Shown here: piece after piece, positions 17,569 through 25,294 of the stretch | Position numbering within the stretch: position 1 is the first letter of the stretch | Layout: the number at the start of each line of letters is the position of its first letter | NCBI RefSeq assembly: GCF_020166105.1 | Contig: NZ_JAIUJY010000003.1 | Span: 372,001 to 436,000 of the forward strand | DNA from: Blastococcus sp. LR1 | GTDB lineage: Bacteria > Actinomycetota > Actinomycetes > Mycobacteriales > Geodermatophilaceae | Direction: 5' to 3' | DNA: 64,000 nt | The notes under the pieces: generated by a model | The model's input: only the letters and a program-made list of their open reading frames with translations | Databases searched by the model: none | What the model was told of the DNA's origin: nothing | Program-made: the position numbers and the translations under genes

Positions 17569-19791
17569 TCAGCCGCCACTCTTGTCGAGGTACATGGCGG
17601 CGTCTGCGTGGGCGATCAGCTCCGCTGCCTCTGCGGCGTCGCGGGGGAACAGAGCGGCTCCGCTACTTGCGCTGAGGCGGACCTCGGCGTGGGCCAGCGC
17701 CAGTGGGCGATCGAGGGCGGCGTGGATGTGCTCCTGGACCCGACGGAGCGTCTCGTCGGCCGACGGCCCCGGGCTCTCCAGCGGGCCCGTCGTCGGGGGC
17801 AGGCCGGCGAGTACCACGAGGAACTCGTCGCCGCCGAGGCGTCCGAGCAGGTCACCAGCGCGGATTGCCGATCGGAGACGGCGCGCTGCCCAGCGCAGCG
17901 CGCTGTCCCCGGCAGCATGGCCGAACCGGTCGTTGATCTCCTTGAACTGGTCCAGATCCAGCATGACGACGGCGACGCTCCCGCCGTTCCGCCGCGCGCG
18001 TCGCAGTTCCAGGCGGAGGTGGTCGAGGGTGTGTGCCCGGTTGGGGAGCGCGGTCAGCTCGTCGTGGTGGGCCAGGTAGGTCGTCCGTCGCTCGCGCTCC
18101 ACCCGGCTCGAGACGTCGAGCTGGTTGCCGATGTAGTGCGTGATGTCGCCGGCGGCATCCGTGACCGGGCTGATGTGGAGCTCGTTCCAGAAGGCCGACC
18201 CGTCGCGCCGGTAGTTGAGCAGGACGGTGTGGACGTCGCGCCCGGCGAGCAGCCGGCGGCTGATTGGCTGCACCTGGGTCGGGTCGGTGGCCGGGCCCTG
18301 CAGGAAGCGGCAGTTGCGGCCCAGCACCTCGTCCGCGGAATAGCCCGTCAGGCGCAGGAACGCTGCGTTGACGTAGACCAGCGGGAGATCCGGCTGCGTG
18401 GCGTCCGCGATGACGATGCCGTTGCTGGCGGTCGAGATGGCCCGGAGCAGGAGATCCGGGAGGACAGCGGGGGGCACGCCCACGGCGCGCGGGGTCTGTG
18501 TGCTGCGTGCAGGCGGCCTCGCGGGCGCAGCGGCGGACATCGCGCGGACCTTCGACAGCACCAGTCCCGCCACCTCGAGGACCCGTTGCCGGTCGTAGGT
18601 CAGGACGTAGTCCAGGCGGCGCGTCGAGTGGCCGACCGGACCGTGCGCGCGGACGGGTTCGTCGCCGCACTCGGCCGTCACGTCCCGAGCGACGAGGGCA
18701 GCGGCGAAGTGCGGGCTGACGACGGTGATCACCCACTGTTCGGTGAGCGGGTCGCCGGACTCGAGTGCCGTGCCGTGCACCCCGGGGGCCGGCTCGTCGG
18801 GCATACCCGCGCCGGTGACGGCGGTCAGCGCGGAGAGGCTGGCCAGGGACTCGTACCTCCGGCGGGTCGCCGGGGTCATGGCCGCTGCGTCCTGGAAGTT
18901 CGCGAGCACCACGGTCTGGTCGTCGAGGAGCAGTGCCTGCCGTTCCAGTTGCCGGGTCATCGAGGCGACCAGCGGCACGGTGGCACGTTGTGCGGCTGAG
19001 GTGGCGGTGAGCATCTCGTACGGCGTCCGGGCGCCTGCGCCTGCATGTCCGCCCCGAGCGGGCGGGGGCGGCGGGACGGGCAGGGCGGACATGCCCTCGG
19101 TCGCCAACGGACCGGGACGTCCGAACATCCATCCCTGACCCAGTCGAGCGCCCATCGCCAGGGCGCGTTCGAGATGCTGCTCGTTCTCGATCCCCTCGGC
19201 GAGGAGGATCGCGCCGGAACGCTCGGCCTCGGCGCGCACGGCGTTGACCACCGCGGCGGTCTGCAGGGTCGTGTGGCCGCGGACCAGGGCGAGGTCGAGC
19301 TTGATCACGTCGGGCCGGAGGAACGGCATGAGCGCGAGCCCCTTGGGCTCGGCGCCGGCGTCGTCCAGGGCGACGTCCCATCCCAGGTCGCGAACGGCAT
19401 GGACGCCGCGGACGAGTTCCGCGGCATTCTCCAGGAGGTCGCGTTCGGTGACCTCGACGACGACGCGCACGTGCTCCGCCGCCAGGTCCGCCCACTCCGC
19501 CAGTCGTCTCGGGGTCAGTGCCGACAGCGTGACCGCTTCGATGTTGACGAACAGCGTGACGGGCCCAGGGCTCCGCCCGGCACCGTGCAGCGCGGCGTGC
19601 AGGCAGCCCTCGTCGAGCTCGGTCAGCGTTCCGGAGGCGCGTGCAGAGGCGAAGAGCGCCTGCGCCGACTCCCGCGGCCCCGGTTCCCCTCGCGACAGCG
19701 CCTCCACCGCGACGAGCGAGCCGTCCCGGAGGTCGACGATCGGTTGGTACAACGTCCGGATCGTCCACCGGGAAGAGGCGGTCGACGTCAC
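17569..19791 (-). CDS. Cyclic-di-GMP protein with EAL, DICT, LOV-type PAS and GGDEF domains
   Basis: A 740-residue signalling protein. Domains in order: EAL phosphodiesterase (about 12-228), a DICT sensory domain (about 257-420), a PAS domain of LOV type (about 447-563) and GGDEF diguanylate cyclase (about 570-735). EAL catalytic residues look intact: Glu30 in VEALSR, Asn83, Glu113/116, Asp143-Asp144, Lys164, Glu199/202 and Gln219. The usual DDFGTG loop reads DDAGAE. The PAS domain has GRNCRFLQG with Cys494, the flavin-adduct cysteine of blue-light LOV receptors. GGDEF is at 653-657 and an RxxD inhibitory site (RAGD, 644-647) lies exactly five residues before it. GTG 19791 follows GGGAGGG. 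Both activities could be present, gated by light or a DICT ligand. Confidence 0.9.
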   Translation of the reverse strand: MTSTASSRWTIRTLYQPIVDLRDGSLVAVEALSRGEPGPRESAQALFASARASGTLTELDEGCLHAALHGAGRSPGPVTLFVNIEAVTLSALTPRRLAEWADLAAEHVRVVVEVTERDLLENAAELVRGVHAVRDLGWDVALDDAGAEPKGLALMPFLRPDVIKLDLALVRGHTTLQTAAVVNAVRAEAERSGAILLAEGIENEQHLERALAMGARLGQGWMFGRPGPLATEGMSALPVPPPPPARGGHAGAGARTPYEMLTATSAAQRATVPLVASMTRQLERQALLLDDQTVVLANFQDAAAMTPATRRRYESLASLSALTAVTGAGMPDEPAPGVHGTALESGDPLTEQWVITVVSPHFAAALVARDVTAECGDEPVRAHGPVGHSTRRLDYVLTYDRQRVLEVAGLVLSKVRAMSAAAPARPPARSTQTPRAVGVPPAVLPDLLLRAISTASNGIVIADATQPDLPLVYVNAAFLRLTGYSADEVLGRNCRFLQGPATDPTQVQPISRRLLAGRDVHTVLLNYRRDGSAFWNELHISPVTDAAGDITHYIGNQLDVSSRVERERRTTYLAHHDELTALPNRAHTLDHLRLELRRARRNGGSVAVVMLDLDQFKEINDRFGHAAGDSALRWAARRLRSAIRAGDLLGRLGGDEFLVVLAGLPPTTGPLESPGPSADETLRRVQEHIHAALDRPLALAHAEVRLSASSGAALFPRDAAEAAELIAHADAAMYLDKSGG

Positions 19792-22825: not shown

Positions 22826-25294
22826 TCAGGAGCCGGCGAGCCGCCGCGCGAGGTAGGGCGCGGTGGCGCTGCCCGCGGCCGCGGCGATCTGGGCCGGGGT
22901 GCCGGAGGCGACCACGCGCCCGCCCGCATTCCCGCCGCCCGGGCCCAGGTCGATGACCCAGTCCGCGGAGACGATCGTGTCCAGGTCGTGCTCGACCAGG
23001 ACGACGGTGTTGCCGGCGTCGACGAGCCGGTGCAGCTGCTGCAGCAACAGCCGGATGTCGGCCGGGTGCAGGCCCGCCGTCGGCTCGTCGAGCAGGTAGA
23101 GGGCATGGCCCCTGCTGGCACGCTGCAGCTCGGTGGCGAGCTTGATGCGCTGGGCCTCGCCACCGCTGAGCTCGGTCGCCGGCTGGCCCAGCCGCAGGTA
23201 TCCCAGTCCGACGTCCTGCAGCGTCTGCAGGCTCCGCGTCGCGGCCGGGACATCGGCCAGGAACGCGACGGCGTCGTCGACCGACAGAGCCAGGACGTCG
23301 GCGATGCTCTTGCCGTGGTGGAGCACCTCGAGGGTCTCGGCGTTGTAGCGGGCGCCGGAGCAGGTCGGGCAGGGCGCGTAGGTGCCGGGCAGGAAGAGCA
23401 GTTCGACGGAGACGAAGCCTTCCCCCTGGCAGGTCTCGCAGCGGCCCTCGGCGACGTTGAAGGAGAACCGCCCGGCCGTGTAGCCGCGGGCCCGCGCCTC
23501 GTCGGTCGAGGCGTACAGCTTGCGCACGGCGTCGAACAGGCCGGTGTACGTGGCCAGGTTGGACCGGGGCGTGCGGCCGATGGGCCGCTGGTCGACCCGG
23601 ACGAGCCGGTCGAACGCCTCCAGCCCGGTCGCGTCCCGCAGGTCGATGTCGAGGTCCTCGTCGTCCGGGTCCTCCGACCGCGGGCCGAGGTGCCGTCGCA
23701 CGACCTCGGCGAGCACCTGCGTGACCAGCGTCGACTTGCCGGAGCCCGAGACCCCGGTCACCGCCGTCAGCACCCCGAGCGGCACGTCGACGGAGACGTC
23801 CTGCAGGTTGTGCCGGGAGATGCCGCGCAGGTGCAGCCAGCCCCGCGGCACCCGGGCGGAGTGCTCGATCGGCTCGGAGCGGCCGAAGAGGTACCGGCCG
23901 GTGGGGGAGTCCTCCACCGACTCCAGGCCGGCGACCGGTCCGCTGTAGAGCACCCGCCCGCCGCCGGCGCCCGCCGCGGGGCCGATGTCGATGACCCAGT
24001 CGGCCCGGCGGACGACGTCCATGTCGTGCTCGACGACGAAGAGCGAGTTGCCCGACGCCTTGAGCTGGTCGAGCACGTCCAGCAGCGGCTCCGCGTCCGC
24101 GGGGTGCAGGCCCGCCGAGGGCTCGTCGAGCACGTAGACGACGCCGAACAACCCGGACCGCAACTGGGTGGCGATCCGCAGCCGCTGGGCCTCGCCCGGC
24201 GACAGGGTGGTCGAGGGCCGGCCGAGTCCGAGGTACCCGAGGCCGAGGTCGAGCAGCACGTCGATGCGGGTGACCAGGTCGGCGCTGATCCGCACGGCGA
24301 CCTCGGTCGACTCGCCGGACTCCGCGCTCGACGTGGCGGCACCGGGCTCGGCGAGCAGCGCCACGGGCCGCAGCAGCGCCGCGACCTCGACGAGCGACAT
24401 CGCGTTGACCTCGGCGATCGAGTGGCCGGCGAAGGTCACCGCGAGCGCTTCGGGCCGCAGCCGGCTGCCGGAGCACTCGGGGCAGGCGATGCTCTCGACG
24501 AACCGCATCGCCCGGTCCCGCATCCGCTGACTCGGGGAGTCGGCGAGCACGTGCATGACGTGCTTGCGGGCGCTCCAGAACTTGCCGTGGTAGCTGTGGT
24601 CGATGCGGTCGCGCTCGGGCTTGATGAGGACGGAGGGCTGCTCGTCGGTGAACAGCAGCCAGGTCCGGTCCTTGCGGGCGAGGTCGCGCCACGGGGTGTC
24701 GACGTCGATGCCGAGCCCGGTCACGATGCTGCGCAGGTTGGCGCCCTGCCAGGCGCCGGGCCACGCCGCGATGGCGCCGTCGCGGATGCTCAGCGACGGG
24801 TCGGGGACCAGGAGGTCCTCGGTGACGTCGTGCACCTCACCGAGCCCCTGGCAGCGTGGGCAGGCGCCGGCCGCGGTGTTGGGGGAGAAGGCGTCGGCGG
24901 CCAGGCGGCCGGCTCCCGGCGGGTAGGTGCCGGCGCGCGAGTAGAGCATCCGCAGCAGGTTGGACAGCGTGGTCAGGGTGCCGACCGTCGACCTCGAGCT
25001 CGGCGCTCCGCGACGCTGCTGGAGGGCCACGGCCGGTGGCAGCCCGGTGATCTCCCGGACGTGCGGTGCGCCCACCTGCTGCACCAGCCGGCGGGCATAC
25101 GGTGCCACCGACTCGAAGTACCGCCGCTGCGCCTCGGCGTAGAGCGTGCCGAACGCGAGCGAGGACTTCCCGGAACCGGAGACGCCGGTGAAGGCGACCA
25201 TCGCGTTCCGCGGGATGTCGACGTCGACGTTGCGCAGGTTGTGCTCGGAGGCGCCGCGGACGTGCACGAAGGAATCGGTAGCCGCGTCTTCCAC
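22826..25294 (-). CDS. UvrA-type ABC ATPase (UvrA2/DrrC-like)
   Basis: An 822-residue ABC protein with two UvrA-type nucleotide-binding halves. Walker A motifs are GVSGSGKSSL (38-47) and a second GVSGSGKSTLV; ABC signatures are LSPGEAQRLR and LSGGEAQRIK. Zinc-binding cysteine pairs include CPRCQGLG, CPECSGSRL, CETCQGEG and CPTCSGARYN. At 822 residues it is about 130 shorter than housekeeping UvrA (around 950), consistent with the UvrA2 class that lacks the UvrB-interaction domain and includes the daunorubicin-resistance protein DrrC. A role in recognising drug- or damage-distorted DNA is likely; the canonical uvrA is presumably elsewhere. Both flanking genes appear unrelated. Confidence 0.88.
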   Translation of the reverse strand: MEDAATDSFVHVRGASEHNLRNVDVDIPRNAMVAFTGVSGSGKSSLAFGTLYAEAQRRYFESVAPYARRLVQQVGAPHVREITGLPPAVALQQRRGAPSSRSTVGTLTTLSNLLRMLYSRAGTYPPGAGRLAADAFSPNTAAGACPRCQGLGEVHDVTEDLLVPDPSLSIRDGAIAAWPGAWQGANLRSIVTGLGIDVDTPWRDLARKDRTWLLFTDEQPSVLIKPERDRIDHSYHGKFWSARKHVMHVLADSPSQRMRDRAMRFVESIACPECSGSRLRPEALAVTFAGHSIAEVNAMSLVEVAALLRPVALLAEPGAATSSAESGESTEVAVRISADLVTRIDVLLDLGLGYLGLGRPSTTLSPGEAQRLRIATQLRSGLFGVVYVLDEPSAGLHPADAEPLLDVLDQLKASGNSLFVVEHDMDVVRRADWVIDIGPAAGAGGGRVLYSGPVAGLESVEDSPTGRYLFGRSEPIEHSARVPRGWLHLRGISRHNLQDVSVDVPLGVLTAVTGVSGSGKSTLVTQVLAEVVRRHLGPRSEDPDDEDLDIDLRDATGLEAFDRLVRVDQRPIGRTPRSNLATYTGLFDAVRKLYASTDEARARGYTAGRFSFNVAEGRCETCQGEGFVSVELLFLPGTYAPCPTCSGARYNAETLEVLHHGKSIADVLALSVDDAVAFLADVPAATRSLQTLQDVGLGYLRLGQPATELSGGEAQRIKLATELQRASRGHALYLLDEPTAGLHPADIRLLLQQLHRLVDAGNTVVLVEHDLDTIVSADWVIDLGPGGGNAGGRVVASGTPAQIAAAAGSATAPYLARRLAGS

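Follow-up and report, generated by a model that had tools for sequence, protein, structure and literature searches.

The analysed DNA, a stretch of 64,000 nucleotides from Blastococcus sp. LR1 (hereafter the window), encodes a protein of two modules, EAL-DICT and LOV-GGDEF, which we consider rather likely to be a receptor of blue light whose two c-di-GMP outputs oppose each other. This reading is based on sequence comparison, from which we infer flavin binding, the light response, the enzymatic activities, their sign and their coupling. The EAL-DICT-LOV-GGDEF protein has 740 amino acids and is encoded at 17569..19791 on the minus strand, with a GTG start at 19791 and a stop codon ending at 17569; the assigned start fits, since in an ortholog (L009) just 7 codons lie between the upstream stop and residue 1. 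Pfam analysis of the translated ORF placed all four domains above cut-off (for DICT, PF10069, 32.5 bits against a gathering cut-off of 23.8) and agreed with the coordinates and domain order proposed in an earlier note on this DNA, which had left the strand unstated. The features are the following.

17569..19791, minus strand: EAL-DICT-LOV-GGDEF ORF, the window protein P0001 (ORF call and Pfam)
19114..19773, minus strand: EAL domain, residues 7-226 (Pfam PF00563, 6.7e-35)
19348..19365, minus strand: loop 6 of the EAL domain, DDAGAE, residues 143-148, where the canonical sequence is DDFGTG (motif and alignment)
18685..18984, minus strand: DICT domain, Pfam match at residues 270-369, conserved block about 262-420 (PF10069, 9.3e-8)
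18103..18453, minus strand: LOV domain, residues 447-563 (Pfam PAS_9 at 457-561, 7.5e-20, and PDB sequence search)
18310..18312, minus strand: codon of Cys494, the predicted photo-adduct cysteine (motif pattern and alignment)
18055..18117, minus strand: 21-residue LOV-GGDEF linker, from Asp559 (DVS) to Leu579 (DxLT) (alignment)
17578..18072, minus strand: GGDEF domain, residues 574-738, with GGDEF653-657, D612 and I-site R644/D647 (Pfam, 4e-39)

Distribution of the family

We collected 96 distinct full-length EAL-DICT-LOV-GGDEF proteins including that of the window, 85 from Geodermatophilaceae and 11 from other families, a set that excludes at least two further full-length matches at class level (G159:C1 and G188:C4). 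Since so many distinct proteins share both the domains and their order, the arrangement in the window protein is not due to chance. At the family level 75 of the 96 genomes (the window's included) match at 1e-60, at the class level 29/394 at 1e-40 and at the phylum level 26/396 at 1e-50, many of the class- and phylum-level matches being EAL-DICT or LOV-GGDEF only. The relatives found at these three levels rule out a rare or one-off fusion. The earlier note had suggested a domain-architecture search to see how rare the order is; within the clade it is not rare, an approximately full-length copy being present, by our reading of the table of matches, in 67/96 Geodermatophilaceae genomes (that of G030 has its N-terminus out of frame). 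Among the best 80 of 351 relatives, orthologs with 75-82% identity were found in Modestobacter excelsi, Blastococcus endophyticus, Blastococcus sp. DSM 46786 and Geodermatophilus sabuli, and 22 ORFs carried both EAL and GGDEF, with EAL first in four of them, all from Geodermatophilaceae.

Four loci, L234 (G051), L242 (G074), L222 (G032) and L229 (G030), have an interrupted reading frame or an N-terminus out of frame, reflecting either assembly error or decay. It was also observed that in many separate Geodermatophilaceae assemblies the gene with a 35-residue LOV-GGDEF linker is located some 15-20 kb in from the beginning of a contig, as if a nearby repeat broke them.

Two modules in swapped order

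The layout had been described in the earlier note as reversing the common PAS-GGDEF-EAL order. This holds for the ends of the protein, where EAL is N-terminal and GGDEF C-terminal; however, a simple reversal has to be rejected, because the order within LOV-GGDEF is the usual one and it is EAL-DICT alone that has moved. Judged from the domain layouts compared here, the order is a rotation in which the modules EAL-DICT and LOV-GGDEF are swapped, and the unswapped order, LOV-GGDEF-EAL-DICT, is found in Solirubrobacter soli (L082). Concerning partial arrangements, one relative (L193) reads GGDEF-EAL-DICT, and EAL-DICT occurs by itself in a number of actinobacteria, including Herbiconiux daphne. 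Eight fetched relatives are EAL-DICT-LOV proteins with no GGDEF domain (two others of equal extent appear in the family search) and five are EAL-DICT-GGDEF proteins with no LOV domain. In an EAL-DICT tree of 103 sequences, a quick one with long branches, without bootstrap and with GGDEF labels partly misread by pattern, both reduced forms (8 and 4 rows) nest within the clade of 35-residue linkers, one group each, with 100% SH-aLRT.

A natural mosaic, L037 (G088:C1:2334966-2340149), is 95% and 92% identical to L065 in its EAL and DICT domains, and 88% and 88.5% identical to L049 in its LOV and GGDEF domains. The join falls between DICT and LOV, the EAL-DICT part being of the type found in Blastococcus proteins with a dead GGDEF domain and the LOV-GGDEF part of another paralog type.

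In three genomes (G053:C10, G081:C11 and G091:C7) a second gene, encoding EAL-DICT and a degenerate GGDEF with no LOV, stands directly downstream of the full-length gene. A second EAL-first arrangement, EAL-LOV-GGDEF with no DICT and with the loop DDLGSG, was seen in L077 (G014:C8).

The LOV domain and its predicted flavin pocket

When the window PAS domain was searched against PDB sequences, it matched chains of aureochrome, phototropin and blue-light-activated histidine kinase. The top match, 8c05, is a sensor-domain diguanylate cyclase that we take to be MsLadC, a member of the LadC group discussed below. The span 447-563 proposed for the LOV domain was confirmed, as was Cys494, which the earlier note had read within GRNCRFLQG as the photo-adduct motif: the cysteine is kept in 96/96 full-length proteins. 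A check for the further Asn/Gln flavin contacts of LOV domains found Q498, N526, N536 and Q557; together with R495 they are invariant in all 96 aligned proteins, and we take these five residues as equivalents of phototropin flavin contacts.

One position departs from this pattern. Seventeen residues after the cysteine (C+17), where we assume the counterpart of Arg467 of phototropin LOV2, the FMN-phosphate arginine, the window protein has Ser511, followed by R512 and R513, and the second FMN-phosphate arginine is missing. An arginine at C+17 is present in 81/96 full-length proteins and in 7 of the 15 nearest to the window protein; it is lost in the other 8 of these 15, all of which have Arg-Arg just after, and retained in 45/46 others. 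Because some working LOV domains do without this arginine, it was not treated as defining the domain; its loss in the window protein may, we presume, mean fast dark recovery. The alignment thus supports a LOV domain in which every flavin contact but that at C+17 is present.

The same loss in P0001 would also fit a flavin redox or oxygen sensor in place of a light sensor, and a precedent could be RmcA, whose cysteine-free LOV-like PAS domain is tied to phenazines, possibly through the redox state of flavin, in the available part of PMC8846402. This reading appears quite improbable to us, since an adduct cysteine that never varies is hard to explain without photochemistry and the solved relatives include named photoreceptors.

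Two exact linker lengths

Counted from the Asp in D(V/I)(T/S), a LOV motif, up to the Leu in DxLT, the linker between LOV and GGDEF is of 21 residues in 21 proteins and of 35 residues in 75, with no third length among the 96 aligned. These are the two linker lengths of LOV-activated cyclases described in the available part of PMC10396304: enzymes with the long linker behave as switches, with stimulation of the order of 10,000-fold, and those with the short one are more active in the dark and show a moderate gain. We evaluated whether the shorter length was specific by a control outside the family, in which 28/32 PAS-GGDEF linkers were also of 21 residues, a count made by a crude pattern (it misreads P0001 as 31) on loci fetched by likeness to P0001. 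Being so common in other PAS-GGDEF proteins, the 21-residue linker does not single out LOV control and was rejected as evidence of light control; the notable class is that of 35 residues. In the same source, two 21-linker LOV-GGDEF pieces cut from LOV-GGDEF-EAL proteins gave no light-regulated synthesis, one of them lacking the GGDEF residues (PMC10396304).

The GGDEF domain

The GGDEF motif and the correctly spaced RxxD site noticed earlier are both present in the window protein, whose GGDEF domain is intact in sequence, with its metal Asp612 and with five residues between the I-site, R644xxD647, and the motif. Across the alignment the motif is intact (GGDEF, GGEEF, SGDEF or AGDEF) in 83/96 proteins and broken in 13/96, and R644 and D647 of the I-site are each retained in 94/96. 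Twelve of the 13 broken copies come from Blastococcus; all twelve lack metal Asp612, and all have an RxGD I-site and intact EAL and LOV domains. In seven of these twelve proteins the GGDEF domains are on average 64% identical and the EAL domains 90%. Decay should however be read from such divergence with caution, because also in intact groups with the 35-residue linker the divergence of GGDEF is roughly double that of EAL: the ratio of GGDEF to EAL divergence is 2.0-2.4 in three such groups, 3.7 in the seven dead proteins and 1.1 in the group of the window protein.

The broken copies with their RxGD site, the eight fetched EAL-DICT-LOV relatives without GGDEF, and EAL residues kept throughout (except for two frame-broken N-termini) would suit a protein that is mainly a phosphodiesterase, with a GGDEF domain that is regulatory or decaying; that EAL output may outweigh in phytochrome-GGDEF-EAL proteins is suggested in the available part of PMC9587094. 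For the window protein we nevertheless judge this unlikely, as the motif is intact in 21/21 proteins of its own short-linker class and GGDEF is nearly as conserved as EAL in its 15 closest proteins (74.0% against 76.5% identity). Since LOV and EAL are kept where GGDEF is dead (twelve proteins) or absent (eight), LOV can arguably act on EAL-DICT, and going by these patterns of conservation EAL is probably a real light output.

The EAL domain and its loop 6

The EAL catalytic residues reported in the earlier note were found again, all ten positions that we checked being intact in the window protein: E30, N83, E113, E116, D143, D144, K164, E199, E202 and Q219. Nine of them are invariant in the alignment of 96 full-length proteins, and E30 is present in 94/96, the remaining two having an N-terminus out of frame. 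The roles of these positions are partly our own assignment, which we assume to hold here. In part, the roles of the metal and catalytic positions were taken from PMC9683572.

The canonical DDFGTG sequence of loop 6 is absent from the window EAL. The earlier note had proposed that DDAGAE in its place may mark a distinct EAL subclass, and this was borne out by a tie to DICT: loop 6 ends in Gly in 0/112 DICT-linked EALs (three of them without a readable motif) against 26/33 EALs without a detected DICT, counts that include some duplicate loci. Of the seven EALs of the latter kind that do not end in Gly, one (L077) owes this to a misreading by the pattern, and four (L184-L187) have the loop of the DICT type, probably alongside a divergent DICT. 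Loop 6 reads DD[V/A]GA[E/D] in 93/96 full-length proteins, so that the variant is to be regarded as a feature and not as decay. In canonical EAL enzymes loop 6 brings two Asp to the metals on dimerisation, according to the available part of PMC5301497, and DICT may, we infer, act on this loop. A search of PDB sequences with DICT gave no credible solved relative, the single match being 7on7 (SAKe6BE-L2), with no stretch passing by itself. In this protein DICT may serve as a second sensor, in line with the second signal suggested in the earlier note, or as a coupling domain.

The departure from DDFGTG throughout the DICT-linked subclass (all 109 readable loops of the 112, none ending in Gly) is a point against the predicted phosphodiesterase activity. 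It favors a different reading, in which EAL binds c-di-GMP without hydrolysis and EAL-DICT is the read-out arm of a diguanylate cyclase driven by light, or of a c-di-GMP effector. This deserves some attention but is doubtful in our opinion, given that 96/96 proteins retain the catalytic Lys, the loop-stabilising Glu and the metal residues, the two loop Asp among them; the inactive FimX, by contrast, lacks a motif needed for metal coordination, as stated in the available part of PMC5301497. Class II EALs with deviating motifs are described as functional in what is available of PMC12900916. An EAL domain with the DDAGAE loop, to judge from its conserved residues, may still be an active phosphodiesterase.

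Paralogs and predicted light inputs in the window genome

Both linker classes occur in the genome of the window, where P0001 has the 21-residue linker and two paralogs, L002 and L003, have that of 35 residues; the GGDEF domain of L003 is dead. An exact LOV pattern, a strict one that can miss variants (the G058 copy has the Cys and yet no match), gave three matches in this genome, all in these three proteins, and none in a backward control. DICT likewise gave three matches, all in the same proteins, and BLUF had no match in this genome at 0.01. Reading the tables of matches, we found that all 19 LOV-pattern matches in 19 Blastococcus genomes lie at most 400 bases from DICT; in other Geodermatophilaceae some LOV-pattern matches stand apart from DICT. 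The 29 EAL domains of the window genome are distributed, again from the table, as 20 after GGDEF, six alone and three before GGDEF, the last being those of P0001, L002 and L003. Since a twin-motif RsiG was reported in 16/16 Geodermatophilaceae species (PMC8325347, available part), a c-di-GMP effector is to be expected. With 40 GGDEF domains beside the 29 EAL domains in 4.0 Mb, this genome has a large c-di-GMP repertoire. Beside L002, an ORF at L002:3857-5173 on the minus strand resembles, by eye, a GAF and methyl-accepting signalling protein.

Comparison with known systems

The closest known group is LadC. The available part of PMC10396304 describes proteins that share with the window family a LOV domain followed by GGDEF, the photo-adduct cysteine and the same two exact linker lengths, 21 or 35 residues. 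The window protein, with one LOV, one GGDEF and a 21-residue linker, may by analogy work like them. The LadC proteins of that text lack EAL and DICT, in contrast to the window family, in which an N-terminal EAL-DICT module precedes LOV in the same chain and one genome has paralogs of both linker classes. EAL-bearing proteins are set apart there as close relatives, and because of its further effector domains (EAL and DICT) we did not file the window protein as a LadC.

Three of the four domains are shared with Synechococcus SL2, a LOV-GGDEF-EAL protein said to hydrolyse c-di-GMP in blue light (PMC8846402, available part); the window protein differs in having EAL at the other end, a DICT domain and a non-canonical loop 6. 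The Solirubrobacter soli protein has the same four domains, a 21-residue linker and a DDLGAD loop 6, but the opposite module order and the LOV motif GRSCSVLQ. EAL-first and GGDEF-last proteins are also known from Streptomyces (PMC6205966) and Azospirillum (PMC5845226). The former lacks a key EAL glutamate and has GGDDF, and the words DICT and LOV are absent from PMC6205966; for the latter, the available part of PMC5845226 makes no mention of LOV or DICT. In BlrP1-type BLUF-EAL proteins blue light acts on an EAL phosphodiesterase (PMC8846402) with the involvement of loop 6 (PMC5301497), in the available parts of both; they differ from the window protein in having BLUF in place of LOV and, in our alignment, the loop DDFGAG. 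A Microcystis protein resembles the window protein in that DICT adjoins a c-di-GMP phosphodiesterase, which however is HD-GYP, with DICT N-terminal, and the available part of PMC7063779 does not mention LOV.

Individually, LOV-GGDEF and LOV-GGDEF-EAL proteins are already known, as are EAL-first proteins and phosphodiesterases linked to DICT. The combination and order EAL-DICT-LOV-GGDEF was not found described in the literature searched, mostly outside subscription journals, where it may be listed in a survey of LOV architectures.

Proposed mechanism and significance

We propose that the EAL-DICT module would be a phosphodiesterase of a distinct subclass, with an altered loop 6 that goes with the following DICT. 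In blue light, FMN in the LOV domain would form an adduct with Cys494 and the LOV dimer would shift, and this shift would change, through the 21-residue coiled coil, the register between the paired GGDEF domains. If the comparison with LadC proteins holds, the window GGDEF would be appreciably active in the dark and gain moderately from light, and its RxxD site would provide feedback inhibition. The EAL-DICT phosphodiesterase could be set by the same LOV movement, by a cue bound at DICT, or by both, and light would thereby shift the balance between making and breaking c-di-GMP. Of the two paralogs with a 35-residue linker, L002 is predicted to be switch-like and L003 phosphodiesterase-only, the latter because its GGDEF is dead.

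A broader and quite tentative idea, which we think has a small chance of being right, is that EAL-DICT forms a separate class of EAL phosphodiesterases in which loop 6 is under the control of DICT as well as of a second EAL, and that its fusion to LOV-GGDEF wires light to synthesis and breakdown in one chain. Blastococcus would then run its LOV input through paralogs of different gearing (graded with 21 residues, switch-like with 35, phosphodiesterase-only), so that c-di-GMP would report light intensity and not simply on or off.

The question of how a single sensor can drive two enzymes of opposite effect within the same chain arises for the many GGDEF-EAL proteins, and the family offers natural test pieces: swapped modules, two exact linker lengths, a dead or missing GGDEF, LOV-less relatives and a natural mosaic. 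The purpose of DICT is given as unknown in the available part of PMC8846402 and its link to light has so far been a prediction (PMC8612252); the window family puts it in the same chain as a predicted light sensor. According to the available part of PMC9587094, phytochrome-cyclases differing in linker length did not occur together in any organism of the set studied; in contrast, one Blastococcus genome has LOV-GGDEF proteins of both lengths.

Gene neighbourhood

Six genes neighbouring the window gene were looked for around 19 loci in 17 distinct places, with flanks of 1.5 kb for 15 loci and of 6 kb for four, and none of them turned up; no neighbour within these flanks pointed to a process, and the neighbourhood was dropped as a clue. 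Further along the window, at 22826-25294 on the minus strand, a UvrA-like protein of 822 amino acids with a UvrA DNA-binding domain is encoded, presumably shorter than the usual UvrA.
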